A DNA stretch of 64,000 nt, from positions 434,001-498,000 of the forward strand of contig NZ_CANMRL010000002.1 of assembly GCF_947500255.1 (NCBI RefSeq), read 5' to 3'. This document shows, piece by piece, positions 8,532 to 43,499 of the stretch; position 1 is the stretch's first letter; the number at the start of each line of letters is the position of its first letter. Source of the stretch: an uncultured Psychroserpens sp. GTDB taxonomy: Bacteria; Bacteroidota; Bacteroidia; Flavobacteriales; Flavobacteriaceae. A program made the translations under genes and the position numbers. The notes under the pieces are model-generated. The model saw nothing but the letters and a program-made list of their open reading frames with translations, had not been told where the DNA came from and searched no databases.

Positions 8532-8630
8532 AAATAAGATTTGTGTAAAAATAGCAAACTATTTACGACAAACACAAAACAAGCACAATATCTAGTGTTA
8601 TTTACAGTTTAATAGGTGAAAAATAATGTG

Positions 8631-8638
8631 CATCTTTG
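8631..8638 (+). promoter_or_regulatory. -7 promoter element of the PorV-like gene
   Basis: CATCTTTG is one base off TAnnTTTG and is preceded at 19 bases by TTTA. It lies downstream of an upstream in-frame GTG (8616), which supports placing the real start codon at 8655. Confidence 0.4.
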
Positions 8639-8654
8639 TAAAAAATTTTTGCTG

Positions 8655-12773: not shown

Positions 12774-13784
12774 TTATTTTAAGATATCAAACCATTTTTT
12801 TTTGACATGGTTCCAATCTAGTTGTTCTACTTTATCTCTCGCATTTTTGATCATTACTTTTCGGGTTTCTTCAGCATTCATCACGGTTATTATAGCATTT
12901 ACCATTTGAGTAACATCATTAGGTTTTACCAAGTAACCCTCATGATTATTTTCAATCAAATAGGGCATTCCACCAACATTAGTAGATACAACTGCCAGCC
13001 CTAAAGCCATAGCTTCAATAACGCTAAGAGGCATATTATCAAAATTGGTTGTATTTAAAAATATATTATAGTCTTTTGAGAGTTCTATCCATTCTTTCTT
13101 TTTTAACTTCCCTGTAAATCTCACCTCTAAGTTCTCTTCTTTAACCATATCTTTAACTGTCCCAAAAGTACCATCGCTATCAGGCCCTACCATACATAAT
13201 TTGGCATTTGGGTACTTATCTTTTAAAGACTTAAAAACTTTGATGGCTAGTTGAGGATTATATAACTTTGAAAAAGAGCGTACCCATAGTAGTCGAGGCA
13301 TATCAAATTCTTTAATAGAGAAGTTATACTCTTTAATCTCTAGCGTATTAGGAATATGAATAACACGCTTAAAACCATGTTGTTCAAATGCATTTTTAAG
13401 ATAAGTTGATGGCGCTATATTATATACTGCATTTTTAAAGATTTTTTGACTCATCTTAGGATGAGATGTTAATCGAGACGGAAGGTTTCCTCCATGCAAG
13501 ATAGGTATATAATCTAATTTTAAAAGTCGGCATATTTGGCTCACAATAAATGCATAATAGTAGTTTTGTGTACTGTACGTATCGATTAGTACTTTCTCCA
13601 CTTTCCTACTATAGAAAACAACTTTATAAATCATGTGCAGCAACCTCATTATTTTATTATTATAACTAGACGCATAAAACACCGTGATCCCTTCTTTTGC
13701 AAGTAAGTCCCCTAGAATACTTATGTAAGACACATTACTATTGGTCTTGTTTAATTTGTTTCCTATGTATAGGATTTTTTTCAT
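12774..13784 (-). CDS. Glycosyltransferase family 4
   Basis: A GT-B fold retaining glycosyltransferase of 336 residues. The donor-site signature near the C-terminus is NTTNFDNMPLSVIEAMALGL followed by VVSTNVGGMPYLIENN, and the mid-domain strand RLLWVRSFSKLYNPQLAIKVF opens the C-terminal Rossmann half. A cytoplasmic, membrane-associated role adding one sugar to the lipid-linked unit is inferred. Its first 47 bases overlap the 3' end of the upstream O-antigen ligase-like gene in another frame, so the two are co-translated. Confidence 0.9.
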   Translation of the reverse strand: MKKILYIGNKLNKTNSNVSYISILGDLLAKEGITVFYASSYNNKIMRLLHMIYKVVFYSRKVEKVLIDTYSTQNYYYAFIVSQICRLLKLDYIPILHGGNLPSRLTSHPKMSQKIFKNAVYNIAPSTYLKNAFEQHGFKRVIHIPNTLEIKEYNFSIKEFDMPRLLWVRSFSKLYNPQLAIKVFKSLKDKYPNAKLCMVGPDSDGTFGTVKDMVKEENLEVRFTGKLKKKEWIELSKDYNIFLNTTNFDNMPLSVIEAMALGLAVVSTNVGGMPYLIENNHEGYLVKPNDVTQMVNAIITVMNAEETRKVMIKNARDKVEQLDWNHVKKKWFDILK

Positions 13785-15099
13785 TTGTGATGTTTAAAAG
13801 TGCGAGTGCATACATAAATGATGGTGCTGCAATTCGCATTCCTGAGTGATTGATAGTTGCAAACCAAAAACTTAAAAAAGCATAGAACAGAAGGTTTTTT
13901 CTGTTTTTCCCGCGATAAGCTAATGGCGTAAAGATCAAAATTAGTAAAATGAGTATTCCTAAAATACCATGCTCAGACATTAATCGACCAACCTCGTTAT
14001 GTGATGGTAATCCTGTACCATCTCTTTCGGCTCGTAAATCTTTCGTTTTATTAACACCAACACCTAAAAACGGACTGTCTTGAAACCCTTCTAATTCTTC
14101 TATAAAAAGGGTAATTCTACCTGATGTAATATCTTGTTTTTCTCTACCAAGAGCATCTTGATTTGCATAGCGTTTATCAATAAGACCAAAGGTTAGGTTA
14201 CTACTTATAACCCATGTGACAATAACGGCAACAACAAACAGTGCAAATGATGTAATAATTTGGTTTTTTTGTTTTAAAGTAGATTTAAAGAACAAACTCC
14301 ATAAAAAAGCGAGAATAACAATAATTGCCGCAACTACACCTCCTCGGCTAAATGTAATAATGGCTCTAAATGTCATCGCTGCAAGAATAGTAACATTAAG
14401 GATTTTAAGAATTAGCGAAGGAGATTTTAGAAAGAATCTAACCACCATCACAAACATACCCATACCTAAAACGGTAGCTACTTGATTGGGACCAAATCCA
14501 CCAGAGGTAGCAGCATTAGATGCTGTTCCAGACAATGTTTCTTTAATACTAGGGTTGTATAAAAACAGATAAGTTGTTGTCGAAATTAAAGGGAGGGAAA
14601 TATACTTGACTATTCGTATCAGATCTTTACTAGACACTTTTCTATCGTAGCAAAACAATGCCGCCACACCCAAACAAACCGGACCACTCAATACAAAAGC
14701 TACACTGGTTCTAAAATTAGCATTATAACTCAAAGTTACAGAAGCAACGAGAATAGCTGGCACGAGTAAAATGAGATACAAAAAGTAAGGGTATCCCTTT
14801 CCTGAAATGCCTTTATAAACCATCCCAATAATCATAAATAGAATGATTAAATATTTAGCAGATTCATATGCCAAGCTACTTTTAGTCATTCTAAAAAACA
14901 CCTCAATACCAACAAAGTAAGCACATGCTAATAAGACATTAATGACTTTATCTTTACTTGGACCAAAAACTATCTTAATTAAAAAATAGAAGATAAGACC
15001 AACAAAGAAGAATTTTGCTGTAGCATTAAAAGTAAAAATTACAAAAGCGAGTGCTATATGGAGTAGAACCAACCCTATGTACGTATCATTTTTACTCAC
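13738..15099 (-). CDS. O-antigen ligase/polymerase-like membrane protein
   Basis: A 453-residue polytopic protein with roughly twelve membrane segments and the large periplasmic loop of the Wzy/WaaL superfamily. The loop carries FLGVGVNKTKDLRAERD and the H-N...E-x-G pattern SHNEVGRLMSEHGILG. Such proteins either polymerise undecaprenyl-linked repeat units (Wzy) or ligate chains to an acceptor (WaaL), and sequence alone does not separate the two. With an ABC exporter in the same locus, a ligase role deserves consideration. It overlaps the following glycosyltransferase by 47 bases. Confidence 0.85.
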   Translation of the reverse strand: MSKNDTYIGLVLLHIALAFVIFTFNATAKFFFVGLIFYFLIKIVFGPSKDKVINVLLACAYFVGIEVFFRMTKSSLAYESAKYLIILFMIIGMVYKGISGKGYPYFLYLILLVPAILVASVTLSYNANFRTSVAFVLSGPVCLGVAALFCYDRKVSSKDLIRIVKYISLPLISTTTYLFLYNPSIKETLSGTASNAATSGGFGPNQVATVLGMGMFVMVVRFFLKSPSLILKILNVTILAAMTFRAIITFSRGGVVAAIIVILAFLWSLFFKSTLKQKNQIITSFALFVVAVIVTWVISSNLTFGLIDKRYANQDALGREKQDITSGRITLFIEELEGFQDSPFLGVGVNKTKDLRAERDGTGLPSHNEVGRLMSEHGILGILILLILIFTPLAYRGKNRKNLLFYAFLSFWFATINHSGMRIAAPSFMYALALLNITNEKNPIHRKQIKQDQ

Positions 15100-17196: not shown

Positions 17197-18296
17197 TATT
17201 TAATCACTTTAATGTATTGTTCAATAATGGTACTCCAGTCATGTTGATTTGCCCATTGCTTGGCTCTCTCATGATATAATTTATGGTCGTTCATTATGAC
17301 TTGAATCGAAGCAATAAAAGCATCGCTATCATCATGATTTATTAATCGGCCTGATTTGTTATCATCTATGGCGTCTTCTATTCCGCAATTTAAAGCTCCT
17401 ATAGCAGGTAAACCAAAATAATTAGCTTCAATAATAGCAATCCCAAAGCCTTCTACATCTCCTTCTTTTGTTTCGCTACTCAACATCACGAAAATATCAG
17501 ATGAACTCAAGAACTGGACTAACTCTTCATTTGATACTCTACCATGAAACGTTATATAGTTCTCAACATTGAGTTGTTTTGCTATCTCTAGAAAAGCATT
17601 GGCTTGTGTTGGCAACCCAACGATATGATAGTGAATGTCTGGAAATCTTTTAATAAGCTTAGGTATGTGTTTAATCACATTTAACTGGCCTTTTCGATCG
17701 GTTACATTTCCGACTGTAATCAATTTTGGAGAACCAGATAAACCAATCTTGCTTACCTGTTTTTTTAATTGCGTACTATCAATCCCATTAGGAATAACAG
17801 TAACAGTACTTAACTCTAAGTCATCGATTAATTGTTTTGTATAGTTAGATACAGCAATAATTTTATTAAAACGTCTCAAAGCAAAATCAACTGTTCGCTT
17901 TAACAGTTTATTGTCGAAATTCACTTCACTACCATGTACAATGGCAATAAAATTACGGTTTAAGAATAAACTGTAAAATGCTACAATCCATAATGAAAAC
18001 TTACCTGAAGCAATGATCGTATTATTTTTCTTTGCACGTCGAAATCCCAGAAATAATCTTTTAAAGTACATTAACCAGCGTATTGCTTGTAATTTGATTC
18101 GATATACTTTAAACTTTAATTGGCGATCAAAATCTAGTTCTTCTTTATTTTCTTTTGAGCGTTGATCAGATATTAATTCTACATTAAAGTCATGTTTTTG
18201 CAAAGCATTAGCCAGATTAAAAGCGTGGTTTCCTATTCCACCGGGCTGCGGAGGAAATTCGGAAGTCACTATTAATACCTTATCCTGTTTACTCAT
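17196..18296 (-). CDS. Glycosyltransferase family 4
   Basis: A 366-residue GT-B enzyme with both domains well conserved: N-terminal VTSEFPPQPGGIGNHAFNLA (glycine-rich acceptor-side loop) and C-terminal PKLITVGNVTDRKGQLNVI, ITFHGRVSNEELVQFLSSSD, and the donor motif SSETKEGDVEGFGIAIIEA. This is one of the more canonical members in the locus, resembling mannosyl- or glucosyl-transferring GT4 enzymes, though donor identity is not inferable. It overlaps the upstream GT2 gene by 8 bases. Confidence 0.93.
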   Translation of the reverse strand: MSKQDKVLIVTSEFPPQPGGIGNHAFNLANALQKHDFNVELISDQRSKENKEELDFDRQLKFKVYRIKLQAIRWLMYFKRLFLGFRRAKKNNTIIASGKFSLWIVAFYSLFLNRNFIAIVHGSEVNFDNKLLKRTVDFALRRFNKIIAVSNYTKQLIDDLELSTVTVIPNGIDSTQLKKQVSKIGLSGSPKLITVGNVTDRKGQLNVIKHIPKLIKRFPDIHYHIVGLPTQANAFLEIAKQLNVENYITFHGRVSNEELVQFLSSSDIFVMLSSETKEGDVEGFGIAIIEANYFGLPAIGALNCGIEDAIDDNKSGRLINHDDSDAFIASIQVIMNDHKLYHERAKQWANQHDWSTIIEQYIKVIK

Positions 18297-19626
18297 TACT
18301 TAGTGTTTCAACTTTAGGTCCTTCATCTAATTTTTTGAGTGATAATTTCCAAGATTTTCGTACTTGAAAAAGGACTAAAGGCAACACGACTAGAGACACT
18401 AAACTTCCTAGTACTAGCATTGCTTTATTTTTCTTGAATTTATATGGCATTATAGATATTGGTACAGTTCGCAGTAAAGCTAGTTTAGATCTGGTGCTTC
18501 CAAAATATGATCTATAAAAATATAGAACACTTGGTATGGGTCTTGGGTCAAATAAATTTTTAGTTCTAAATGCATCCCAGCTACCCATTTGTCTTAATCC
18601 ACCTGTACCTACTTTTAAGTGCAAGCGTTTTGCATAAGGATTAGAAATATTAAGGTAATTATTCAAGTACATTCGCATACCATATTCACCATCTCCCATA
18701 CGTTGCTTTTCAAATTGCCTATCAAATAATCCCAAGTCTTTGAATACTTCTTTTTTTATGAGCACATTACCTGTATCTAATTGATCACTAACTTTAAAAA
18801 ACGAATAGTTAAGTGGTACTTTAGCACCAACTTTAGAGATAGAAACTCCTGAAGAGGCTTGGGCTTTAAAAAAATCTAAACATTTTAGATGCTCAGATAT
18901 CCAATTGACATCTACTCTACTATCGTCATCAAACAGCAACAAATAACTGCCTTTAGAGCATTTAATAGCGGTATTTCTCGCTAACCATAGGGCTTTCTCT
19001 TTTTGGTGAATAAGATGTAAGTCCAAATTGAAATTTGAATAAAAATCTGCATCAAATGGTTCCGATTGATCCACAACTATGACTTCAAAAGTCTTATAAT
19101 CTTGTTTTTCTAAATCTTCTAAAACGTCCTTTAGATATTCATATCTGTTTAACGTAGGAATTACAACCGTAACCATAGGTTGTTCCTCTATTAAATTCGA
19201 TTTAAAATCGTTCCAGTTGTTAACGTCAAGAGGTTGATTTAAATACGAACTTCTTTTTACTGCTTTAGTCACATACCAAGCCTTAAGTTCTTTAAAAGGG
19301 TTTTTGAAACTAAATAAACGAAGCAATAAAACATAGCTCACCCACGCCTTATTAAAGTAACGCCTTATAAACGTATAATTGTCTATTAAGCTTGTAGGTT
19401 CTACCTCACCAATAGTTTCGGCATTACCTATATAGCCTTTCTGAATGGCTTGCCAAGACAAATCGTATTGTTTGGCATGTTCCGTTTGATACGCTGATTC
19501 GACTTCCAGTTGCTCCAATATGTGACTGTCCAACTGACTAGCAACAGGAAATATTGATCTGTCATTTTTCCTTAATACTGAAAAGTAATTTGTTGGTTGC
19601 AAGTATTTCAAAAAAGGAAACAACAT
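18289..19626 (-). CDS. Glycosyltransferase family 2, with N-terminal extension
   Basis: A 445-residue protein whose GT-A domain begins only at about residue 155 (VTVVIPTLNRYEYLKDVLED). It has the nucleotide-binding VIVVDQSEPF and the metal-binding LLLFDDDSRVD. The acceptor segment LGLFDRQFEKQRMGDGEYGM has the E/D-D-x-E-like pattern of this fold. The first 150 residues are unrelated to GT2 and have no family I recognise. The C-terminus has a hydrophobic stretch (MLVLGSLVSLVVLPLVLFQV) that could anchor the enzyme in the membrane. Confidence 0.9.
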   Translation of the reverse strand: MLFPFLKYLQPTNYFSVLRKNDRSIFPVASQLDSHILEQLEVESAYQTEHAKQYDLSWQAIQKGYIGNAETIGEVEPTSLIDNYTFIRRYFNKAWVSYVLLLRLFSFKNPFKELKAWYVTKAVKRSSYLNQPLDVNNWNDFKSNLIEEQPMVTVVIPTLNRYEYLKDVLEDLEKQDYKTFEVIVVDQSEPFDADFYSNFNLDLHLIHQKEKALWLARNTAIKCSKGSYLLLFDDDSRVDVNWISEHLKCLDFFKAQASSGVSISKVGAKVPLNYSFFKVSDQLDTGNVLIKKEVFKDLGLFDRQFEKQRMGDGEYGMRMYLNNYLNISNPYAKRLHLKVGTGGLRQMGSWDAFRTKNLFDPRPIPSVLYFYRSYFGSTRSKLALLRTVPISIMPYKFKKNKAMLVLGSLVSLVVLPLVLFQVRKSWKLSLKKLDEGPKVETLSNE

Positions 19627-19644: not shown

Positions 19645-21504
19645 TTATTTTATTAATGATTTGATGATATCGATTTCGATATTTAATGAACTTAACGACA
19701 ATATATTTGAATTAGTAAGTGGCCAACGCTTTAGATCTCTTCTATCAATAATCCCTTTCTTTTGTTGCACTATATATTGATCTCCCAAATGACCTGGACT
19801 AAAATAAGCATCTAAACGTGCTTCCAAATTTTCGTGTTGATATGCTTTAACCCAATTGATACTTTTTAAAAGTCGGTACCTTCCTTTTGGATTTTTAGTT
19901 TTAAGTAATCGTCTAATGAAATATTGATCAAGTCTTGAACGAATTCCCCAAACCAAGAAAATTAAGATATTTGGTGCATTATGTGGAATAAAAGGTGTTT
20001 GGCTCGTCGGCACCCTATTTAAGGGACGTAATTCTTTTATATGCTTAAATAAGCCATTCATGAATCTATAATTCAATCTATTATTAGGATGTATAGCACT
20101 CGATTTCCTCAATATGTTTAGTGATAGTGATGGATTTATTCCGTTGAATTTTTGATTACAGATCAGTGTTTGCTTACCAATTGGAAAACGGCCATGAGTA
20201 TACCATGCAAAAAGCTCATCGTATAGTTCAAAATAAGGCAATTGATGGCTCTCAATTCTTTTAAAAATCAATTCATAATCAGAGACGACTTCTTTAATAA
20301 GATGATCATAATCCATATCGATATCGAGCTTATCTATAGTTGCCTTTGTGTAACGCCTTAAGTACATTTTCAATCGGCTTTTCTTCCATGATTCGAACGA
20401 TTCATCTGTAGCAGGCTGTAACTGAAAATCTTTATTTAAGACAATCGTATTGATAAACTTAGAAATTCTAGATTTTCTAGTCGATAAAGTCGAAATATTT
20501 CTAGCAGGCAAAATTTCACAGGGTTCACCTAGCATGATCGAAGCCGTTTTATCTTCTTCAATATGTTCTAGTATTTCCAACCAACTTGCGATATTAACAG
20601 ATTCAGAATTTACAACGTAATCTTTTAAGAGTGTTCTATCTGGAAAGTACAAATCAATATCATAAAAGCTTTCAAAATCATAGCCCTTGAGCTTTGCTAA
20701 TCGTTTTGCCAGTTTTACTTCGTAATTATCTTCATGACCAAAAGTCAAACATTTTATAGGCAAATCATTAGGTAGTGCACCTAATAAAATCCTGCTATCC
20801 ATCCCACCGCTCAAAGCCAAATAATTCTTGTTGAATTGCGCCAGAGCATACTCAACCTCCTTTTTAAAATCTTTCCAGTAATTTACATAGTCTTTCTTCT
20901 TAGGTCGCCTAGTGTCGGTGATATTAAAAAGTGTATTATCATAGACCTTATCTAGCGTTTTGTTTTGAGGATTAAGCTTTATATATTCTCCAGGCAGTAG
21001 TCGTTTCACTTCTTTAAGAATGGTTCGATCTCCTAGGTTTAAAAACTCTTTACCAACCGCTTTTTGCACTATTCCAACTTCATCTAAATCAGATTTAGAA
21101 GCTATAGCTGCCAACATAAAATTGGAGGTTACAAAAAAGTTATTCTTGTTGGATGAATAAAACATCGGATAGACACCAATAGGGTCTGTACAAAATATAA
21201 GTTCACGATTTAATTTATTAAACGCCGCCAATGAAAAGCTTCCAGAAACAGAATCATCAGAAATTGGCCAATGTTCTAATATATGATCTATAGACTTTGC
21301 ATACTGAAGATTTGTATTGCTCTTTTCAATACCTGTGTGACATAAATAACCACTAACAAATGCAAGAAAGTTATCTGTTTCATGCACTGCTCTTTCAGAA
21401 TTATAATAGCAATAAAAATCACCGATACGCTTTTCTGAAAATGAATTAGAAAAAATATCAAATTCTGTATTTTGAATGGGCTTAATGGTTATGATAAAAC
21501 TCAT
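19645..21504 (-). CDS. Asparagine-synthetase-related protein with inactive glutaminase half
   Basis: A 619-residue member of the asparagine synthetase superfamily. The C-terminal ATP-pyrophosphatase half carries the PP-loop LALSGGMDSRIL (SGGMDS at 232-237) and the later FESFYDID region. The N-terminal half has the class-II amidotransferase layout (SGSFSLAAFNKLNRELIFCTDPIGVYPM is split over residues 87-113) but starts MSFIITIK, so the nucleophilic Cys2 is missing. It probably adenylates a carboxylate and uses another nucleophile, or free ammonia. A role in forming an amide on the glycan or an amino-acid substituent is inference. Confidence 0.85.
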   Translation of the reverse strand: MSFIITIKPIQNTEFDIFSNSFSEKRIGDFYCYYNSERAVHETDNFLAFVSGYLCHTGIEKSNTNLQYAKSIDHILEHWPISDDSVSGSFSLAAFNKLNRELIFCTDPIGVYPMFYSSNKNNFFVTSNFMLAAIASKSDLDEVGIVQKAVGKEFLNLGDRTILKEVKRLLPGEYIKLNPQNKTLDKVYDNTLFNITDTRRPKKKDYVNYWKDFKKEVEYALAQFNKNYLALSGGMDSRILLGALPNDLPIKCLTFGHEDNYEVKLAKRLAKLKGYDFESFYDIDLYFPDRTLLKDYVVNSESVNIASWLEILEHIEEDKTASIMLGEPCEILPARNISTLSTRKSRISKFINTIVLNKDFQLQPATDESFESWKKSRLKMYLRRYTKATIDKLDIDMDYDHLIKEVVSDYELIFKRIESHQLPYFELYDELFAWYTHGRFPIGKQTLICNQKFNGINPSLSLNILRKSSAIHPNNRLNYRFMNGLFKHIKELRPLNRVPTSQTPFIPHNAPNILIFLVWGIRSRLDQYFIRRLLKTKNPKGRYRLLKSINWVKAYQHENLEARLDAYFSPGHLGDQYIVQQKKGIIDRRDLKRWPLTNSNILSLSSLNIEIDIIKSLIK

Positions 21505-21549
21505 TATCCTAGGCTAACTTATATGTTAAGGGTCATTTAAATTTCTAAA

Positions 21550-22413
21550 CTACCATTTAGAATTTTTTTCAAAGCCTAAATTAATCAATTCTTTGCCTGC
21601 AATAGCTTTAAAAGTCATCTTTTTTATAAGATTCCACTTTTTCCATTTATTAGAAAATTTAAATTTTGATTTATCCGAATCTGGTTTCCAATTAGGCTTT
21701 ACCATTTTTTTAGATGACACTCCAAATGAACTCCCAACCACAGGCGCTTTTAAGCAGTTGTCTAAAATATCTTCATTCACATCTAGATCATAATGTGAGA
21801 GCAGATTAGATATTTCTGTTTTTGAATCATTAAGCATTTCATATTTAAATACTTTAACCTGATTATCTTGAGTAATAGAGGCAATTTGCCTAGCTGTTTT
21901 AACCCATTGTTTGGTATGATTTATAAACGACCTTCCTGAGAAAAAATTAACTCGCTTTTTCAGTTTTATACTTATGTTATGCCAGTCTCGTTTATCATTT
22001 GAAGCTCGTACTGAAGAAATCACATTGTCTCTCCCATCTCTACAAATTACAGCTATTTTTGAATCAGGAAACGCTAATTTCCATAAGTCGATATGTGCTA
22101 CACTAGGTGATTTTATAAAAATAGTCTTATCACTTTCAATTCTGTACTTATCAATAAGTAGTGATAACCAGGCCTGGCCATAATTTTTTATAAATGTGGA
22201 CTTATCTTCGCTAGTAAATTTCATTCCAAAACTATCTTTAACAATCTTATCATAGACGTCTGTTGTAACCGTATCGGTATAAAATAGATTAAATTCTCCC
22301 AGTGATATATCTTTTGGAAGTGTTGACACATGAGGATGCTGTGCAATAGTTGAACCAACAAAATTTGTCCCACTCCTAACCCGTTGTCCAAGAAGAATAA
22401 TAATTTTATTCAT
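21550..22413 (-). CDS. Sulfotransferase-family protein (1 of 3)
   Basis: A 287-residue cytoplasmic protein with a PAPS-binding P-loop-like start, LLGQRVRSGTNFVGSTIAQHP (5'-phosphosulfate loop, residues 11-20). The 3'-phosphate-binding segment is AVICRDGRDNVISSVRAS (Arg and Ser conserved). It would transfer sulfate from PAPS to a hydroxyl of the glycan or its precursor. Genes for PAPS synthesis are not in the window. It overlaps the upstream GT4 gene by 8 bases. Confidence 0.85.
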   Translation of the reverse strand: MNKIIILLGQRVRSGTNFVGSTIAQHPHVSTLPKDISLGEFNLFYTDTVTTDVYDKIVKDSFGMKFTSEDKSTFIKNYGQAWLSLLIDKYRIESDKTIFIKSPSVAHIDLWKLAFPDSKIAVICRDGRDNVISSVRASNDKRDWHNISIKLKKRVNFFSGRSFINHTKQWVKTARQIASITQDNQVKVFKYEMLNDSKTEISNLLSHYDLDVNEDILDNCLKAPVVGSSFGVSSKKMVKPNWKPDSDKSKFKFSNKWKKWNLIKKMTFKAIAGKELINLGFEKNSKW

Positions 22414-23566
22414 AGAATTCCAAAAATTCTTTCTGTTGCTTTTCTAGATTGAATTGTTCTGCAACACGACTTTGAGCATTAGTTCGCATGTGTTGCTTCT
22501 TTTCATTAGGTAAAAGTAAGAGATTTTTAATTGCTTTAGCTAACAATCGTGGTTGACGTTTTGGAACAACGATACCAGTTTTTTCATCTATGACATTTTC
22601 TTTCAAACCGTCAGCATCTGAAACAACACATAATAGTCCCATTGCTTGCGCTTCTAGCACAGCATTACAAAATCCTTCTGAATCACTATATTGTATATAT
22701 ACACTTGCCTCAGACAAATACGTAACAACATCTTCTGGTGCTTTCTGTCCAACAAACCGAACTCGGTCTTCAAGTTGAAGTTGATAAACCGCAAACTTTA
22801 GTTGTTCTAATTCCTGTCCTTCACCAATAATAGTATATTGAAAATCAACACCTTCCTTTTTTAATAACGATAACGCCTCTAACGTATAGTCTAAACCTTT
22901 TATCCAATGCAATCTAGCAATCGTTACAAACTTAAAATCATCTCTTAGAATATCACTTGTTACCTCGAACTTTGTGTGATCTATTGCTGGTGTAATAATT
23001 TGAAAAGGCACAGCTTTTGAGAGTCCCGATTCTATAGCCTTTCTATAAGTATAGTTTGATATGGCATGTAATTTATCAATAGACTCCCATAATGCCTTAT
23101 AACAATTGGGATGTTTTATAGGAAATACATCAACATCAAAACCTCTCACACTAACAGCAGATTTTGCCTTAATTGTCTTAGCGACACTTTCACTTTGTAC
23201 AGCCATCGTAGCAAAACCAAAATGCAGCCAATCCAAATGTGATGTAATGATGTGCGCATTGGTATACAAATTCTTTAGCCATTGTATAGTTGATCGATTT
23301 CGCTTTTTTTCTAAGGAAATAAATGTAGATACACGATTAAAAAAAGGCAAAAGTTTTAATAGTACATACCCATATAAAACTACTTGTAAGACTCGATTTT
23401 TTGAAACTTTAGGAGCACAAATCACTTTACATAAATTGTAAGCATCAGGGTTTTCTTGAACAAATAAAACAACCTTGTATCCCGACTGTTGCAACCCTTT
23501 AATTTTAGAATTAAAAAAGGTTTCAGAATACTTAGGCGGCTTAGACAAGACAATTCCAATGGTCAT
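22406..23566 (-). CDS. Glycosyltransferase family 4
   Basis: A 386-residue GT-B transferase. The N-terminal domain has the amphipathic LQQSGYKVVLFVQ region and VSVRGFDVDVFPIKH. The C-terminal domain has FKFVTIARLHWIKGLDYTLE, YTIIGEGQELEQLK, VRFVGQKAPEDVVTYLSEAS and the donor motif YSDSEGFCNAVLEAQAMGL. The organisation resembles colanic-acid WcaL-like and AmsK-like enzymes, commonly galactosyltransferases, but that assignment is weak. A possible internal promoter lies 58-65 bases upstream. Confidence 0.92.
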   Translation of the reverse strand: MTIGIVLSKPPKYSETFFNSKIKGLQQSGYKVVLFVQENPDAYNLCKVICAPKVSKNRVLQVVLYGYVLLKLLPFFNRVSTFISLEKKRNRSTIQWLKNLYTNAHIITSHLDWLHFGFATMAVQSESVAKTIKAKSAVSVRGFDVDVFPIKHPNCYKALWESIDKLHAISNYTYRKAIESGLSKAVPFQIITPAIDHTKFEVTSDILRDDFKFVTIARLHWIKGLDYTLEALSLLKKEGVDFQYTIIGEGQELEQLKFAVYQLQLEDRVRFVGQKAPEDVVTYLSEASVYIQYSDSEGFCNAVLEAQAMGLLCVVSDADGLKENVIDEKTGIVVPKRQPRLLAKAIKNLLLLPNEKKQHMRTNAQSRVAEQFNLEKQQKEFLEFYE

Positions 23567-23623
23567 TTATCAAATACTAAATGAATTATAAGTTAATGGT
23601 ATTAATAACACACCACAATACAT

Positions 23624-23631
23624 CAAATATA
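23624..23631 (-). promoter_or_regulatory. Possible internal promoter -7 element
   Basis: On the minus strand this reads TATATTTG, an exact TAnnTTTG match in the 114-base gap between the MBOAT gene and the following GT4 gene. No clear TTTG is present at -33, so the support is moderate to weak. It could re-start transcription for the left half of the locus. Confidence 0.3.
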
Positions 23632-23680
23632 CACACCCATAAGCTTATAAAAAATTGTTTTAATTAGAAATATAGATTCA

Positions 23681-25117
23681 TTAAAACTGAAAATAGATAA
23701 ACTCTTGTTCTTTACCACCATATAAGAAAATGAGAACTACCATTATCAAATATATGATCCATCTCAATACTCGAGGGTAACTCAACCATAATCGCTCTAT
23801 TGCATAGAGTTGTCGTCGTCCTGACCATTCAATAACCAAGAAAAAACTAATAAAAATCATTAGATATAAAGGTCTAATTTCAGGAAGAGTAAAGAGTGAT
23901 TTATTAGCCATCAAATTCAAATAATCAAATGCTTCCGTTATATTTTTGGCTCTAAAAAACACCCAAGCCAGAACAGTTAGAATAAAAGTCACAAGCATTA
24001 AAACAAACTCTTTAAAGCTTGGTAATAATCGGTTTTGTGCTACAATATCTGTATGTATTCTATTTTTTTTGAGTAAAAAAACAGGAAGAAAATATAAGGC
24101 ATTTAAAAGTCCCCATACTATAAAAGTCCAATTCGCACCATGCCAAAAACCACTAATAACAAAAATCACAAATACATTACGTATTTGCAATACTTTTGAA
24201 CCTCTTGATCCTCCTAAAGGAATATAGAGATAATCTCTAAACCATGTCGATAGTGAAATGTGCCAACGTCTCCAGAACTCTGCAATATCCCTTGAAAAAT
24301 AAGGGAATGCGAAGTTTTGTTTCAAATTGAACCCAAATAACCTTGAGGTACCAATAGCAATATCTGAATATCCAGAAAAATCGCCATAGATTTGAAAGGC
24401 GAAAAATACGGCTCCAACAAATAGTGTACTTCCAGAGTAGCTAGCATGATTATCAAAGATCATATTAGCGTAGGTTGCACAATTATCTGCAATGACCACT
24501 TTTTTCGTTAATCCCCAAAGGATTTGTCGCAATCCATCAACAGCTGTGTTATACTCAAACTGTCGTTGTTTAAAGAACTGTGGTAATAAATTTGTAGCAC
24601 GTTCGATAGGACCTGCAACCAACTGTGGAAAAAAGCTCACAAAAGCTGCAAAAGCGACAATATCATTGGTTGGTTCTAATTTCTTCTTATAAACATCGAT
24701 TGTATAACTCAATGTTTGAAATGTATAGAAACTAATACCAACAGGCAAAATAATATCAAGTGTATTAGACTTAATTTCTTGTCCGAAAAAAGTAAAAACA
24801 CTTGTAAAATTATCTATAAAGAAGTTGTAATATTTAAAGAATCCCAAAAACCCAATATTGACAGCAATACTGATCCAGAGGAGCCACTTTCTTTTGGAAG
24901 GTTGGGTTTCGGTTTTTAATAGTTTTCCTATGGAAAAATCAACTAAAGTGCTAAAAACAATTAAGGCTAAAAATCGATAATCCCACCATCCATAAAACAC
25001 ATAACTGGCAACAACAATCAATATATTTTGATACTTTAGATTTTTTTGAGTAACAAACCAATAGAGTACAAATACTATCGGTAGAAATACAGCAAAATCT
25101 ATAGAATTAAATAACAT
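23681..25117 (-). CDS. MBOAT-family O-acyltransferase (AlgI-like)
   Basis: A 478-residue polytopic membrane protein of the membrane-bound O-acyltransferase family, which passes acyl (often acetyl) groups across the inner membrane for O-acetylation of surface glycans. Hallmarks are AFQIYGDFSGYSDIAIGTSR, FWRRWHISLSTWFRDYLYIP and the active-site histidine in SGFWHGANW (His326). In AlgI-type systems a periplasmic SGNH-like partner completes the transfer; a candidate partner lies in this locus at 34068-34949. The preceding GT4 gene's stop abuts its start by one base. Confidence 0.93.
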   Translation of the reverse strand: MLFNSIDFAVFLPIVFVLYWFVTQKNLKYQNILIVVASYVFYGWWDYRFLALIVFSTLVDFSIGKLLKTETQPSKRKWLLWISIAVNIGFLGFFKYYNFFIDNFTSVFTFFGQEIKSNTLDIILPVGISFYTFQTLSYTIDVYKKKLEPTNDIVAFAAFVSFFPQLVAGPIERATNLLPQFFKQRQFEYNTAVDGLRQILWGLTKKVVIADNCATYANMIFDNHASYSGSTLFVGAVFFAFQIYGDFSGYSDIAIGTSRLFGFNLKQNFAFPYFSRDIAEFWRRWHISLSTWFRDYLYIPLGGSRGSKVLQIRNVFVIFVISGFWHGANWTFIVWGLLNALYFLPVFLLKKNRIHTDIVAQNRLLPSFKEFVLMLVTFILTVLAWVFFRAKNITEAFDYLNLMANKSLFTLPEIRPLYLMIFISFFLVIEWSGRRQLYAIERLWLSYPRVLRWIIYLIMVVLIFLYGGKEQEFIYFQF

Positions 25118-26227
25118 TTAATCAATTTTTAAAATAGCTTTAAATAAGTCTTCATGCATATCCATAAAAATCTTTACCGATAAGTTTTGCTCTACATAAC
25201 TGCGCATATCTTTGGCCAGTTGATCTCTGTCATTTTGAGACATGTCCCTAAAGGTTTTAATTTTATGTGATAGATCATCGACATTACTTGGTTCAAACTG
25301 ACAATTTGGGAATGCTTTTAGTACTTCTCTTACACCAGTAATATCAGACCCCAAAACAATCCTACCACTCGCCATGGCTTCCATAGGCGCAATTGGCAAG
25401 CCCTCACGTCGTCCTTCATCTTTTGTTGGAATCACAAATAAATTGGCCACAGCCAAAAAGGGTCTAACATCGAGGTGTTTTCCAACGAAAAATATATGAT
25501 CATAATCCTTATAATCTGAAATTAATTGGGCTCCATAATCGTTATTGGCATCACCAACTATTAAAACTTTAATCGACGAATCATTGAGTTGGTTAACTGC
25601 ATCCAACAAAATTTCAATCCCTTTAACAGGAACTAAGTTAGCAACAGAAACAATGATAAAATCGTCTTCTTTAAACTGTTGTCCTGTAGGCACAGTGTAT
25701 GTCTTTTTTAAAGGTGTAAAACGATTAATATCTACTGCTAGAGGAATTTGAACAACTTTGTCTTCCATACCAGTAAAAAAAGCAGATTTCATCTCTTCGT
25801 TGACGACTACAACTTTGGTGCTTAATTTAGAACGCCAAGTCCATGCTTTATTTCCCCAACCCATTGCTTTTTTAGAATAGATATAAGGTATTTTAGCAAG
25901 TTTTGCTGCTAGAGGCTCAGAAAAATCTGAACTCCAATGCCATGAATAGATCAAATCAAATTTATGGGTCTTAAAAAACTTCACAATTTTAAAAACTCGA
26001 AACGGAAATGTGAAGAATGGTCTATAATTTTCAGTAAAATTAAACAGATGAATTTTGACATCTAATGCTTTCAGTGCTTCAAATAGTTCCCCTCTGTCAT
26101 GAAAACAACATACATGAGGTTCAAATATTGAACGGTCTATTCGGTTTACAATATCATATACCGATTTACCGCTTCCCGCTGTATCAAAATTTGGTATTGT
26201 AAGTAATAATTTGACTTTTTTATTCAT
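25118..26227 (-). CDS. Glycosyltransferase family 4
   Basis: A 369-residue GT-B enzyme. Recognisable segments are LLTIPNFDTAGSGKSVYDIV (acceptor-side glycine loop), DLIYSWHWSSDFSEPLAAK, FIIVSVANLVPVKGIEILLD, HIFFVGKHLDVRPFLAVANL and the donor motif PTKDEGRREGLPIAPMEAMA. The last has four extra residues between the acidic pairs compared with the usual E-G-F-P form. There is no membrane segment. It is tightly packed between the MBOAT gene and an asparagine-synthetase-like gene. Confidence 0.92.
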   Translation of the reverse strand: MNKKVKLLLTIPNFDTAGSGKSVYDIVNRIDRSIFEPHVCCFHDRGELFEALKALDVKIHLFNFTENYRPFFTFPFRVFKIVKFFKTHKFDLIYSWHWSSDFSEPLAAKLAKIPYIYSKKAMGWGNKAWTWRSKLSTKVVVVNEEMKSAFFTGMEDKVVQIPLAVDINRFTPLKKTYTVPTGQQFKEDDFIIVSVANLVPVKGIEILLDAVNQLNDSSIKVLIVGDANNDYGAQLISDYKDYDHIFFVGKHLDVRPFLAVANLFVIPTKDEGRREGLPIAPMEAMASGRIVLGSDITGVREVLKAFPNCQFEPSNVDDLSHKIKTFRDMSQNDRDQLAKDMRSYVEQNLSVKIFMDMHEDLFKAILKID

Positions 26228-26228
26228 T

Positions 26229-27605
26229 TTAATAGGTCTGTTTAAACTTTGAAAGCACTAATAATATATTTAATGGATGTGCATTTTCTAACGAGTTTCC
26301 GTTGTAAAAATCATTTAAATATGCTTCACTAACCGATTTAGACACCCATTGATTGAACGTATTATTTAACAAATAACTCGATAGCATCTCTTTATTAGCA
26401 TCTCCTAAAAATTGTAATTCCCAATTACGTTGAACATAATCATTTCCAAAGATACTTTGCAGCACTCGTTTAGATTTATTGAGCAATTTATAGGGTAAAT
26501 TATAAGGTATTTTATTCTTATGGTAATTGTACAGGTTAAATGGTCTTTGGTCTTGCCATTCAATCTTAGCTAATTCTGGCGATTTATTCTTAATATAGGC
26601 AATTTGCAACTGTCTATCTTTTAAAAATGCTTCAGGCACTGTACAAATAAATTGACACATCCTATCATCAAAATAAGGTAATGTAATAGGATGATGTGCC
26701 TCAAAAACACTTAAATTGATAGATGTCCATCTTGGTGCCCAATACAAAGATTTAAATGCCCGCAACTTAGCATTAGTATCATCAATATTAATCGCATTTA
26801 AAAGCGCTTCTATTCTTGTTTTAAAATACGTTTTGAAATCGCCTTCTAATGCCCACAAGTTCCATAGTGTTTCTGCAAATTCTAATCCGCCACGTTTAAT
26901 TAATTTCTTAGATATCACATCAATTTCTTCATCATTAGACAACTGTGGTAAATTCATGGCATCAAATAACACATCGCCCCAATGCCCTAAAGAAAATACA
27001 GTTCCCATATCGGCATATGCATTAAAAACACCCATCTGACGCGGTGTTGTAAAATCTGAATACCCTTGATTGAGTTCAAAAAGTTGATCTATTGAATTCC
27101 ACAAATAACCTCTTGATATGTCAAAGTCGCGATACTTGAATTGAGATGCCTTAGCTATCTTTTTAGCTATTGCTGTTTCGTTGTAGCCATTCTGAAATTT
27201 ATAACTGTAAGACATCACATCTGCTCCAACTTGCTTGAGAGCTACAGCCTGTGTTCTACTATCTAAACCTCCTGAAAGTGGTAAAATAACGTGTTCACCT
27301 TTCGTTTGCTCTAGAATAATCGACTCTAGTAATGCAGCAAACTCTTGCTCTGCTTGTTCAAAAGGTATATCGCGAGGTGAATAATGCCATTCAAACCATG
27401 GTTTAGAATTAATACGGTTCCCTTTGTCATTTATAGAATGTACAGAGGCTGGACCTAATACAACTTCATTTTTCCAATATGTATCCTCATCTAAAAAAAA
27501 ACCTATAGCCGCAAAAACACAAATAGCCTCAAGATTTAATTCACGAGGTTGATCAACCTTAGCAAAGGTTTGTGATTTTGGTATGATGGTTGTTTTTAAC
27601 TCCAT
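26229..27605 (-). CDS. Asparagine-synthetase-like ATP-pyrophosphatase, no glutaminase domain
   Basis: A 458-residue protein with the PP-loop LPLSGGLDSRTQAVAL (SGGLDS at 111-116). It contains SYSYKFQNGYNETAIAKKIAK and a C-terminal region typical of the asparagine-synthase synthetase domain. The first 100 residues are too short for, and do not resemble, an Ntn glutaminase domain; there is no Cys2. It therefore resembles stand-alone adenylating members that use an amine other than glutamine-derived ammonia. It is the second of three superfamily members in the locus, and the substrate is unknown. Confidence 0.85.
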   Translation of the reverse strand: MELKTTIIPKSQTFAKVDQPRELNLEAICVFAAIGFFLDEDTYWKNEVVLGPASVHSINDKGNRINSKPWFEWHYSPRDIPFEQAEQEFAALLESIILEQTKGEHVILPLSGGLDSRTQAVALKQVGADVMSYSYKFQNGYNETAIAKKIAKASQFKYRDFDISRGYLWNSIDQLFELNQGYSDFTTPRQMGVFNAYADMGTVFSLGHWGDVLFDAMNLPQLSNDEEIDVISKKLIKRGGLEFAETLWNLWALEGDFKTYFKTRIEALLNAINIDDTNAKLRAFKSLYWAPRWTSINLSVFEAHHPITLPYFDDRMCQFICTVPEAFLKDRQLQIAYIKNKSPELAKIEWQDQRPFNLYNYHKNKIPYNLPYKLLNKSKRVLQSIFGNDYVQRNWELQFLGDANKEMLSSYLLNNTFNQWVSKSVSEAYLNDFYNGNSLENAHPLNILLVLSKFKQTY

Positions 27606-27628
27606 TAGTTAGGTTGCAACAATATAAA

Positions 27629-28807
27629 TTATTTTAAAACAGATTGATACAATTCTTCAAATTTTCGGATACTATCTAACGCTTGAAAATGATGCTTTAC
27701 AAAATCGTGCGCATTTTGAGTAATTTCTTTTAGTAGGTCCTCAGAAGATTGTGAGACTTTAATAATTGAATTTGCAATAGCATCAGCATCTCGAACTGGG
27801 ATAAGCCAACCATTGGTATTTGTTTTTACTACCTCAGCCATTCCGCCACAATTTGTTGCAATCACAGGTAACCCAATAGCCATAGCCTCTAAAACAACAT
27901 TAGCAATACCTTCTTCTAAACTAGATAACAATTGAACATTAAAGGTCTTCATAAGCCTAAATAAATCGGCCTGTGGTAATCCTTTTAAAATGGTCACGTG
28001 GTTTGTTAATTCTAACTGATGGATTTGAAAAAGAACAGCCTCAGATACTGGGTTTGAAGCGATAAATGTCAAATGAAAATCAAAACCTTTGTCTTTTAAA
28101 ATTTTACAGGCATCTAACGCATATTTATAACCTTTTTTCCAATGAAATCGCCCTACAACACATATGTTAAAAACAGCTGACTCTGGCATTTTATATGCTG
28201 AAAAATGCTCAAATGTAGATGCAGGAATAGGCGAATGCACGACTTTAATTTTAGTCGCTTCGGCTTTATAGCGTTGTGCCTCTAGTGAAATTGCCTCAGA
28301 AACAGCGTGAAATGCATCCACTTTGGGAAAATTAATCTGATAGCTCTTTGCTAGTGCCTCATTTGCAATTGGTGAATAATTGATATGAGCGCCACGTAAA
28401 CTAAGTACTAGTTTAACATTTAATGTTTCTTTTAGAAATACCCAATGCTCTAAATCTTTAGCCCATTGTATATGAAAAATATCAGGTTTGTGAAGTATAA
28501 CTGGTAAAACTCTCACCAAAGTTCTACGTTTGTTATAAGTCCCTTTTTGTTTTTTTACTTCAGAAAATAGAACACTAAGACGTTTTGGATAACGAAACAT
28601 TAGTATCAAAAACCGATAACATGATATCACAAGACTTTTAAATTTACTCTTGGGATTAGAATAGGTTTTTATACGATTGGAATGGTATTTTTTAGATTTT
28701 TGAAGTGTTCCAAATAATAACACGTCATGAGAATTGGCAATACCTTCAATTAAATGCTCAATAAAAGTTGTACTGGGAATGACTCCCGAAAAAACAGCTA
28801 TTCTCAT
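27629..28807 (-). CDS. Glycosyltransferase family 4
   Basis: A 392-residue GT-B transferase resembling the colanic-acid type. Segments are AVFSGVIPSTTFIEHLIEGI, FHIQWAKDLEHWVFLKE, LSLRGAHINYSPI, FNICVVGRFHWKKGYKYALD, VTILKGLPQADLFRLMKTFN and the donor motif SSLEEGIANVVLEAMAIGLP. It overlaps the upstream asparagine synthase gene by 4 bases. Similarity in layout to the protein at 22406-23566 suggests the two are distant paralogues. Confidence 0.92.
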   Translation of the reverse strand: MRIAVFSGVIPSTTFIEHLIEGIANSHDVLLFGTLQKSKKYHSNRIKTYSNPKSKFKSLVISCYRFLILMFRYPKRLSVLFSEVKKQKGTYNKRRTLVRVLPVILHKPDIFHIQWAKDLEHWVFLKETLNVKLVLSLRGAHINYSPIANEALAKSYQINFPKVDAFHAVSEAISLEAQRYKAEATKIKVVHSPIPASTFEHFSAYKMPESAVFNICVVGRFHWKKGYKYALDACKILKDKGFDFHLTFIASNPVSEAVLFQIHQLELTNHVTILKGLPQADLFRLMKTFNVQLLSSLEEGIANVVLEAMAIGLPVIATNCGGMAEVVKTNTNGWLIPVRDADAIANSIIKVSQSSEDLLKEITQNAHDFVKHHFQALDSIRKFEELYQSVLK

Positions 28808-30639
28808 ACTAATTGTTGACTAATTGCCCATTTCTGCCAAGCATAGATATGCCAAACTCCCCAAGCAGACTCATGTTTATTATTGTAGAAATCTTCAATA
28901 TATTTTTTTACTGCCTGTAAATTAATAATTTCTGCTCCATAAAAAGGCGTTTCTAAGATCACTTTTTCAACATCTTTCTTTAACTCATGTCGTAGCCATG
29001 AATTAATTGGCACAGAGAACCCCTTCTTTTGTTTATTTATAAGTGATTTTGGATAATGAGTTTCCATTACCAATTTTAATGGCCGTTTTAAATCCTCTTC
29101 ATTCTCAAAATTTTCAGGAAGATAATGTAAGGCTGTATCTATAACCTCTTTATCTAAAAAAGGAACTCTAACCTCTAAACTATTTGCCATACTCATTCTA
29201 TCTACTTTTATCAATACGCGCTGCATATGTGCATAAAACTCGTTATATCGTAACCAACTCAATGTGTTTGAATGATTAGAAACAGTGTACAGTTTATGCA
29301 TCTCTTTAGACAATTTTTGGTCTTTAAAAAACCCATTCAGTTTATCTTTAAAAATGTAAGTATGCTTTTCTTTAACCCATTCGTCTATAGTTTTGAAATG
29401 ATATGGTGCCCAAGAATTAGTAATCTTCAATCGATTGGTTAAACGTATTAGAGGCCTACGTAGTGCAAATGGTATTTTAAACCAATGTGCTTTATGCATG
29501 ACATCTAACATTCTTGGGTAACCAAAAAACAATTCATCTCCTCCATCACCAGATAACATAACTGTATTTGTTTCTCTGGCTTTTTTTGAAATTAAATACG
29601 TTGGAATACTGGAATAATCACCAAAAGGCTCAGGAAATTTGCTAAAGTGTTCATCAATTAAGTTGACTAACTCTTCGGTTTTAACATGCTCAACCTTATG
29701 ATTAACGTTTATATGTTCAGCATAGGCCATTGCATCGTCACTTTCATCAAGTTGCTTATCTTCTACTGAAACTGTAAAGGCTTCAATATTTGGATGCTCT
29801 TGTTTGGCGATAGCTGTAATTAACGGACTATCAATACCTCCACTTAAAAAAGTGGCCAAAGGCACATCACTCATTAATTGTCGTTTTACCGCTTTATTAA
29901 TTTTAGTCTTTAAATCGTTGACAATAGTATCAGACTGTCTTGAAGTTGGCTTTACATCATTAAACACACTGTATTGCTTTTCTTCTATTGATTGATCTGA
30001 ATTGATCTGAATAAAAGTTCCTGGATTAACTTGAAAAATAGTATCATAGATCGTATTAGGTGATTGCATATAACCAAATCCAAAATACTCCTTAACCAAT
30101 TCTGAACGCAATTGTAAGTGGTCTTTAAACCACATATGCTTAAATACTTGATCAAATTGGGATGCAGCAACAATACCTTTACTAGACACACCGTAGAATA
30201 GAGGTTTAATTCCAGCAAAATCTCTTATTAAATAAATATTTCCTGTTTGCAGATCTTTTACAGTAATAGCAAACATACCATTAAGTTCTGTTATGGTTTG
30301 TTCTACACCTATTTTATCTAATAGATGTACTAATACTTCAGAATCTGATGTAGATCTTAAGTTGGAAAGTTCATATCTAATTTCTAAATCTTTGTAGTTG
30401 TATAGTTCTCCATTAAAGACAACATGATAGCGCTTTGACGGACTCTGCTTAGGCTGATTTCCGTTAGGAGACAAATCCAATATAGAGAGTCTGTTAAACC
30501 CTAATTGATAATTAGAGCCTTTTTCGGTTTGAGTTGCATCAGGACCTCTATGTTTAGATAGACTTAACAGGTTTTGAAAATGTGCAGCTTCAGATACCGA
30601 TGTTGTTCCAAAAGTAAATTCTGCTAGAAAGCCACACAT
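28804..30639 (-). CDS. asnB: Glutamine-hydrolysing asparagine synthase-type amidotransferase
   Basis: A full-length (611-residue) AsnB-type enzyme. The Ntn glutaminase domain has the nucleophile Cys2 (MCGFLAEF), KHRGPD (30-34) and FNGELYN (75-81), and the synthetase domain has FLSGGIDSP (PP-loop 266-271). It hydrolyses glutamine and amidates an adenylated carboxylate. In polysaccharide loci, homologues such as WbpS amidate uronic acids. Because WbpO/WbpP-like genes in this locus supply an N-acetylhexosaminuronic acid, glycan amidation is a reasonable inference, though housekeeping asparagine synthesis is not excluded. Confidence 0.92.
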   Translation of the reverse strand: MCGFLAEFTFGTTSVSEAAHFQNLLSLSKHRGPDATQTEKGSNYQLGFNRLSILDLSPNGNQPKQSPSKRYHVVFNGELYNYKDLEIRYELSNLRSTSDSEVLVHLLDKIGVEQTITELNGMFAITVKDLQTGNIYLIRDFAGIKPLFYGVSSKGIVAASQFDQVFKHMWFKDHLQLRSELVKEYFGFGYMQSPNTIYDTIFQVNPGTFIQINSDQSIEEKQYSVFNDVKPTSRQSDTIVNDLKTKINKAVKRQLMSDVPLATFLSGGIDSPLITAIAKQEHPNIEAFTVSVEDKQLDESDDAMAYAEHINVNHKVEHVKTEELVNLIDEHFSKFPEPFGDYSSIPTYLISKKARETNTVMLSGDGGDELFFGYPRMLDVMHKAHWFKIPFALRRPLIRLTNRLKITNSWAPYHFKTIDEWVKEKHTYIFKDKLNGFFKDQKLSKEMHKLYTVSNHSNTLSWLRYNEFYAHMQRVLIKVDRMSMANSLEVRVPFLDKEVIDTALHYLPENFENEEDLKRPLKLVMETHYPKSLINKQKKGFSVPINSWLRHELKKDVEKVILETPFYGAEIINLQAVKKYIEDFYNNKHESAWGVWHIYAWQKWAISQQLV

Positions 30640-43466: not shown

Positions 43467-43499
43467 AGTTTAGCTTATTCTAAGATTTTTGAACACTTA

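Follow-up and report, generated by a model that had tools for sequence, protein, structure and literature searches.

The three AsnB-like genes

The stretch analysed here, called the window in the following, comprises 64,000 nucleotides of an uncultured Psychroserpens sp. (contig NZ_CANMRL010000002.1, positions 434,001 to 498,000). It holds a glycan locus with three open reading frames of the asparagine synthetase (AsnB) superfamily, all on the minus strand and at the coordinates that an earlier note on this DNA had given: an AsnB/WbpS-like glutamine-dependent amidotransferase of 611 residues (28804..30639), a free-standing AsnB-type synthetase domain of 458 residues (26229..27605) and a two-domain AsnB-fold protein of 619 residues (19645..21504). 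The earlier note had remarked that only the first keeps Cys2, the glutaminase nucleophile, and that all three keep an SGG(M/L/I)DS PP-loop; indeed, the MCG start was found in the 611-residue protein alone and the loop in every one. Unremarked had been the residue that follows the loop: the two Cys-less proteins have Arg there, the 611-residue protein Pro. Judging from the trees described below, this SGGxDSR motif is the mark of one old clade, and the two proteins may couple sugar acids with an amine that is not ammonia released from glutamine. Relatives of the three proteins are referred to as 611-type, 458-type and 619-type.

The 611-residue protein has the Cys2 and glutamine-site motifs of an ordinary glutamine-dependent member intact: the start MCGFLA (MCG at 1), HRGPD at 30, NGELYN at 76 and TSDSE at 97, together with SGGIDSP, SGDGGDE and KQKKGF. 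It scores 252 bits with the Pfam domain Asn_synthase and 102 bits with GATase_7, and lies above the cut-off of TIGR01536 (363.5 vs 267.1). The WbpS equivalog TIGR03108 gave its best E-value, yet with 373.8 bits against a cut-off of 816.9, which is not reached. In both trees the protein groups among the Cys2 proteins.

The 458-residue protein matches Asn_synthase (PF00733) above the cut-off (27.2 bits, cut-off 21), with an E-value of 2.6e-17 in a profile comparison. Its predicted model (mean predicted local distance difference test score, pLDDT, 93.8) aligns to solved AsnB-type enzymes from their residue 115-137 onward, i.e. the protein starts near the linker that follows the glutaminase half, and this half is absent according to Pfam as well, in line with the earlier observation. 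The best solved match is the hydroxyamidotransferase TsnB9 (Z 24.1, root-mean-square deviation (rmsd) 3.2, 389 aligned residues), followed by CarA (Z 19.9, rmsd 3.8, 324 aligned), human ASNS (Z 19.2, rmsd 3.5, 309 aligned), beta-lactam synthetase (Z 18.3, rmsd 3.5, 307 aligned) and Escherichia coli AsnB (Z 16.7, rmsd 4.2, 310 aligned), where differences in Z below 1 are treated as ties. All 21 aligned 458-type proteins share SGGLDSR, E143, Q190, G207, H208, G210, D211, K285 and R331, and an RN(W/F)ELQ motif near the C-terminus. Profile alignments put the GHWGD of the 458-residue protein on GYGSD of CarA and GEGAD of AsnB, and thereby H208 on their Tyr and Glu, respectively, residues that serve as general base or contact the substrate (the Glu is Glu348). 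In beta-lactam and carbapenam synthetase a catalytic Tyr occupies this position; here it is His in 21/21 458-type proteins and Glu or Asp in the 619-type (the CarA alignment covers the 458-residue protein).

The 619-residue protein presents a different picture, in that a glutaminase-like half is present but dead. At position 2 the window protein has Ser, whereas its five aligned relatives have Lys or Arg, hence there is no conserved nucleophile, and the likely place of the NGE motif is occupied by (S/D/E)GY. Pfam recovers GATase_7 below threshold (23.8 vs 25 bits) and no Asn_synthase (PF00733) match, and the profile comparison to AsnB covers residues 71-285 (E 3.2e-15). The predicted model (pLDDT 85.4, with weak stretches at ~331-350 and 501-550) matches whole AsnB-type enzymes over both domains from residue 1, best TsnB9 (Z 20.1, rmsd 4.1, 499 aligned), then beta-lactam synthetase (Z 19.2, rmsd 3.9, 393 aligned), CarA (Z 19.2, rmsd 4.0, 421 aligned) and AsnB (Z 19.1, rmsd 3.9, 418 aligned), the lowest quoted Z of the set being 18.5. 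Its first ~190 residues match the class-II glutaminase domains of GlmS and EgtC (Z 10.1-10.5), so that the class-II glutaminase-like half without Cys2 that the earlier note had proposed is borne out by the predicted fold. The six aligned 619-type proteins, window included, all keep SGG(M/I)DS followed by Arg (SGGMDSR in the window). The models thus give both Cys-less proteins a predicted AsnB-type fold.

A Cys-less clade marked by SGGxDSR

We compiled 129 AsnB-like proteins from the open reading frames of loci that were recovered in searches with the 458-residue protein, the 619-residue protein, PF00733 and alignments; the set is not a random sample and was obtained from 166 proteins by removal of exact and contained copies. 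Cys2 was considered absent when there was no MCG-type start, and the starts of the Cys-less proteins were inspected. Every SGGxDSR protein (54/54) lacks Cys2 and none of the 69 proteins with an MCG start has DSR. The remaining six comprise two Cys-less proteins with DSS (in regions L120 and L145), one protein that starts with MCA and has DSG (L113) and three truncated sequences. One protein with SGGFDTR (L125) falls outside the motif pattern and was added to both trees by hand.

In a tree of 105 sequences, which omits most 458-type copies, DSR changes once and Cys2 twice, and the DSR branch has a support of 90 (not starred). In a tree of 61 rows, which also omits four long rows, of which three are DSR, as well as some two thirds of the MCG rows, and which holds four lasso-type sequences (three above the NF033535 cut-off), DSR and Cys2 each change once, and the branch between DSR and non-DSR has a support of 98 (starred). 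Both trees are quick, unrooted and long-branched, and they do not fix the deep order within DSR or the number of Cys2 losses. The 458- and 619-residue proteins lie on the opposite side from the sampled Cys2 proteins, including the two other AsnB copies of the same genome, which bears on a refutation named in the earlier note: within the limits set by the long branches, both trees rule out that the two are housekeeping AsnB.

The phylogenetic check against lasso peptide cyclases that the earlier note had proposed was answered in part. The lasso sequences fall with the non-DSR proteins and outside the DSR clade, which speaks against a lasso-cyclase kinship of the two proteins; in the unrooted 61-row tree they stand between this clade and the proteins with Cys2, a position that does not decide on a separate loss of Cys2. 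The NF033535 scores agree, with 22.5 vs 525 bits for the 619-residue protein and the 458-residue protein not listed. Five lasso cyclases above the NF033535 cut-off are Cys-less yet have DSS or DST, and therefore the Arg marks the clade and not the loss of Cys2 itself. That DSR arose repeatedly in response to Cys2 loss is ruled out, as DSR changes once per tree and the L120 and L145 proteins and the lasso cyclases lack Cys2 without having DSR. The former two (L120:967-2787, L145:511-2340) start with MKGFFG; they group with a lasso-type sequence in the 61-row tree but among Cys2 proteins in the 105-row tree.

The clade extends beyond the Bacteroidota, and its members were seen repeatedly in Wzx/Wzy, capsule and haloarchaeal sugar loci. 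A plasmid search with the 619-residue protein returned 13 haloarchaeal records; the same search with the 458-residue protein gave no matches. Six of these records were read, and five encode Cys-less DSR proteins (three SGGxDSR and two SAGxDSR, the latter at L188:7743-9434 and L189:7650-9449), the sixth an MCG protein with DST. Annotated sugar-chain genes, including nucleotide-sugar dehydrogenase, glycosyltransferase, polysaccharide deacetylase and flippase, were found in four of the five DSR regions, the fifth having only glmM. Among further DSR types of the Bacteroidota, that of L154 is flanked by a Wzy-like and a Wzx-like gene, and that of L157 has a Wzx-like neighbour. Of the 17 DSR regions outside the 458-type and 619-type orthologue sets (L154-L170), seven contain a glycan-like gene (L154, L155, L156, L157, L160, L162 and L170), and ten have no gene like the glycan genes of the window, by a weak test that missed the Wzx and Wzy of L154; a wholly glycan-bound clade is thus not borne out. 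One DSR branch (L132, L133, L134, L139, L147, L148, L150 and L153), several members of which have an MSW start and G(G/A)FGEI, is mostly without glycan-like neighbours: within the L132-L153 branch (8 regions) just one such gene was found (a GT2 glycosyltransferase in L162), and four of the neighbours are by Pfam FG-GAP, DUF1670, peptidase M20 and cation efflux.

Gene pairing and distribution

Full-length 458-type genes were found in 20 of 148 other genomes of the family (48-62% identity) and in nine other genomes of a 295-genome sample of the class. One of these nine (L104) has a protein of 593 residues that retains an N-terminal half without Cys2, which fits an origin of the short 458-type by loss of that half. 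The 458-type gene is paired with a GT4 glycosyltransferase gene (25118..26227 in the window; minus strand, like all genes given below), as follows from genome-wide matches: the partner matches with 104-491 bits in all 20 other 458-type genomes, and the best match in the 128 genomes without 458-type gene has 58 bits. Within the 20-kb regions (20 plus the window) it was recovered in 20/21 at the clustering threshold, and in genome G073 it is in place at ~30% identity. Further genes recur around the 458-type gene: a GT4 gene (22406..23566) in 21/21 loci, with matches above 300 bits in 20/20 of the 458-type genomes and in three others; a third GT4 gene (27629..28807) in 17/21; and by Pfam an MBOAT O-acyltransferase (23681..25117) in 15/21 and a GT2 gene (18289..19626) in 12/21. 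In one 458-type locus, L083 (7854-9661), a GNAT gene (327 residues) lies beside a polysaccharide deacetylase gene (272 residues), which recalls the VimA/VimE pair of the Wbp/Vim pathway.

The 611-type is less faithful. It was found in 11/21 of the 20-kb regions, window included, and genome-wide in 10/20 of the 458-type genomes (seven at 53-58% and three at 37-39% identity); one further genome has it in the absence of a 458-type gene. A general role of the 611-residue protein as glutaminase partner of the 458-residue protein is hereby ruled out.

The 619-type is rare. Two of the 148 other family genomes have a match, and a scan across 84,980 species gave six loci, which appear to include those two and belong to Psychroserpens, Salegentibacter (three), Gillisia and Salinimicrobium. 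The 619-type gene is followed by a GT2 gene in each of the six (in the window by that at 18289..19626), with a Wzy-like gene nearby. Psychroserpens luteolus encodes the 619-residue protein at 99% identity within the same surrounding gene order and, as in the window, together with the 458-type. The five 619-type loci outside Psychroserpens have no 458-type gene within ~10 kb on either side, and in two of these genomes (G007 and G031) none was found genome-wide; the 458- and 619-residue proteins therefore belong to different modules.

The surrounding locus

Besides the genes named above, the locus includes a sulfotransferase gene (21550..22413), a Wzy/O-antigen ligase-like polymerase gene (13738..15099, the one that is also found in 6/6 619-type loci), a further GT4 gene that is common to the two 619-type loci of the family genomes (12774..13784) and an initiating polyprenyl-phosphate sugar transferase gene (11322..12716; TIGR03025 340 vs cut-off 296), all by Pfam, as well as pyruvyl-transferase and ABC-exporter genes. 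Candidate sugar-modifying genes, whose names reflect the best NCBIfam match by sequence, encode a TviB-like UDP-GlcNAc 6-dehydrogenase (50902..52194; 544 vs 592 bits, just below cut-off), a TviC-like epimerase of UDP-N-acetylhexosamine (HexNAc)-uronic acid (49922..50902; 322 vs 760 bits, below cut-off), a WecE-like 4-amino-sugar transaminase (45970..47097; 578 vs cut-off 375 bits) and a WecD-like GNAT acyltransferase (48253..48954; 104 vs 219 bits, below cut-off). The product would be an acidic surface polysaccharide that is probably sulfated and acylated. Elsewhere in the genome there are two more AsnB copies, of 616 and 554 residues and both with an MCG start; the sixth of six PF00733 matches in the genome is presumably an MnmA-like protein.

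Some other features were observed in passing. An ABC exporter pair (42225-44354), the Wzy-like polymerase gene and two initiating sugar transferase genes (11322-12716 and 52197-52784) occur in one gene run, which perhaps implies two polysaccharides. A PorV2-like type IX secretion gene (8616-9719, 425 vs 325 bits) directly adjoins the glycan locus; its neighbour at 9719-11311 is Lnt-like, and a link of the glycan to the anchoring of type IX cargo is possible. Proteins of 541 and 293 residues (44355-45980 and 34068-34949) had no Pfam or NCBIfam match, and a protein of 271 residues (15145-15960) had as its sole match in these databases a sub-threshold transglutaminase.

Proposed roles and alternatives

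We read the locus, as a whole with a probability of roughly 40%, as combining a uronamide maker, the 611-residue protein, with two DSR proteins that are ATP-dependent amide ligases and use an amine not derived from glutamine. TviB/TviC-like enzymes would supply a HexNAc-uronic acid and the WbpS-like 611-residue protein would turn this into the primary amide using glutamine. In the 458- and 619-residue proteins, the PP-loop would bind ATP, a carboxylate would be adenylated and an amine from another source than glutamine would attack to give the amide. The 458-residue protein would act on the sugar placed by its partner GT4 and the 619-residue protein would work with the adjoining GT2. As acceptor we consider most likely the carboxylate of a uronic acid that the chain already contains, and as nucleophile an amino acid or small amine. 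The absence of a fixed glutaminase partner favours this reading. The earlier note had suggested ATP-dependent amide formation with amines other than ammonia; fold, PP-loop and uronic-acid-type genes fit such chemistry, and they do not tell amino acid, amine, amino sugar and free ammonia apart.

Several observations weigh against this reading. As DSR changes once in the trees, its link with the loss of Cys2 is a single event and not repeated evidence. H208 of the 458-type is replaced by Leu in the distant L104 protein. In AsnB, a Lys stabilises the adenylate and pyrophosphate (PPi); its counterpart in the 458-residue protein could not be securely placed among the candidate positions 354 (Arg or Lys in 20/21 aligned 458-type proteins and 23/31 of the wider family) and 365 (Lys or Arg in 18/21). 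In the 619-type, this Lys was not confidently placed by sequence either, the metal-site Asp is Glu in 5/6 and Thr in 1/6, and the profile alignment to AsnB ends at residue 285, the latter two of which make catalysis by the 619-residue protein less sure. The lack of glycan-like genes in ten further DSR regions adds to these points. Of the TviB- and WecE-like genes, the former were counted across genomes: TviB-like matches (E ≤ 1e-100) were found in 20/20 of the 458-type genomes vs 98/128 of the others (Fisher p 0.014) and within 45 kb of the 458-type gene in 12/20, leaving eight without one nearby; this co-occurrence would agree with a uronic acid as acceptor, yet it is weak, because TviB-like genes are widespread and clustering is usual for glycan genes. 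Finally, in the Wbp/Vim pathway (PMC7468200) the protein that transfers amino acids to a sugar amine is the GNAT-like VimA, which is not an AsnB relative, and hence the decoration of a glycan with amino acids does not by itself require one.

The most probable alternative, which we nevertheless regard as unlikely, is that the DSR enzymes adenylate a small free carboxylic acid (an amino acid, or a hydroxy acid, e.g. malate) and that an amino sugar, perhaps a 4-amino-4-deoxy sugar, receives it on its amine, to give an N-acyl amino sugar. AsnB itself adenylates a small acid, and the locus has the WecE-like transaminase and the WecD-like GNAT, although this GNAT can already explain an N-acylation. 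Amide-linked R-malic acid in an O-polysaccharide of Flavobacterium psychrophilum and amino acids N-linked to amino sugars are reported (PMC3210612, PMC10609480), but the known transfer of an amino acid to a sugar amine is that by VimA (PMC7468200). Moreover, the GT4 partner of the 458-residue protein suggests action on a sugar that was already transferred.

Next, and doubtful as well, is that one or both DSR proteins, more likely the 619-residue protein, are no longer amide ligases and have become structural or regulatory partners of a glycosyltransferase, or carry out other PP-loop chemistry with ATP or PPi. The varying metal-site acid of the 619-type, the lack of a recognisable catalytic Lys and of an AsnB profile match after residue 285, and the GT2 gene that follows in 6/6 loci would all fit, whereas SGG(M/I)DSR is kept in 6/6, despite an identity to the window protein of ~36-43% in the outermost members, and a PP-loop that had fallen out of use should have decayed.

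It is slightly more doubtful still that free ammonium is the nucleophile of the DSR enzymes and that their products are primary uronamides formed independently of glutamine. Loss of the glutaminase would by itself leave the nucleophile unchanged, and AsnB-type enzymes can use ammonia in vitro; yet the 611-type would already make primary amides in 10/20 of the 458-type genomes, the 619-residue protein retains its N-terminal half as a dead domain, and the acid at position 348 of AsnB is replaced by His in every one of the 21 aligned 458-type proteins. Ordinary divergence, with three housekeeping-type asparagine synthetases assembled in a glycan locus by chance, is very improbable: the score of the 611-residue protein with TIGR01536 would agree with it, but the genome has separate AsnB copies elsewhere, and the 458- and 619-residue proteins, which reach only a small part of the cut-off score of any NCBIfam model that recovers them, have no working glutaminase and fall on the DSR side of the trees.

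The Cys-less SGGxDSR clade, part of which has fixed glycosyltransferase partners, provides a short list of genes for the question of how amino acids are attached to glycans. For annotation, the Arg after the PP-loop may serve as a one-residue sign that the label 'asparagine synthase' need not imply glutamine hydrolysis.

Comparison with known systems

The set of three enzymes, which the earlier note had held to be non-standard, has a precedent. The gene listing in PMC3684757 for psc1, a 75-kb exopolysaccharide region of Rubrivivax gelatinosus, contains three genes designated asparagine synthase (wbpS), together with MBOAT, glycosyltransferase, wzy and polysaccharide deacetylase genes; psc1 is from another phylum, and the likeness is one of gene listing. 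The Thauera MZ1T cluster (PMC4784049) is related to psc1. Two of our other loci also have three AsnB-like genes, L172 and L080. The latter is a second, different set, with a 458-type protein, a Cys2 protein and a DSR protein of 536 residues on a very long branch (L080:17277-18887).

The products proposed here have counterparts as well. WbpS of Porphyromonas gingivalis (PGN_1234) makes glucuronamide in the Wbp/Vim pathway (PMC7468200), many bacterial polysaccharides contain uronic acids in amide linkage to amino acids (PMC10609480), polysaccharides of a marine Colwellia that are decorated with threonine or alanine inhibit ice recrystallisation (PMC5852497), and for an archaeal glycan the threonine-attaching enzyme was stated in 2010 as not identified (PMC2952790). 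The 611-residue protein resembles the WbpS/WbqG-type uronamide synthases in its Cys2, its PP-loop and a glycan locus with UDP-HexNAc-uronic-acid-type genes, with the sequence comparison made through the TIGR03108 profile; the 458- and 619-residue proteins differ from these in being Cys2-less and DSR.

The top structural match of both DSR models, TsnB9 (7ylz), is by its name an AsnB-type enzyme whose product is no plain amide; it differs in having SGGLDSS, and the 458-residue protein lacks the glutaminase half. Beta-lactam synthetase and CarA have the same fold, and their syntheses proceed without glutamine. Kinship was here judged by motif and fold alone: CarA GYGSD aligns with GHWGD of the 458-residue protein, which has His in place of the CarA Tyr, and CarA differs further in having SGGLDSS and an antibiotic instead of a glycan context. 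Lasso peptide macrolactam cyclases (NF033535) are, like the DSR proteins, amide-making members of the superfamily without Cys2, but the five examined keep DSS or DST and the three in the tree lie across the starred branch.

The open-licence literature of PMC, which does not cover subscription papers, yielded no report of a glycan enzyme that is Cys-less and DSR. The AsnB superfamily, amidation of the WbpS type and Cys-less amide-forming relatives, i.e. beta-lactam synthetase and lasso cyclases, were already known. Three things are new as far as the open-licence literature reaches: the existence of a DSR clade without Cys2, the fact that it recurs in glycan loci of Bacteroidota as well as haloarchaea, and the constant association of the 458-residue protein with its GT4.

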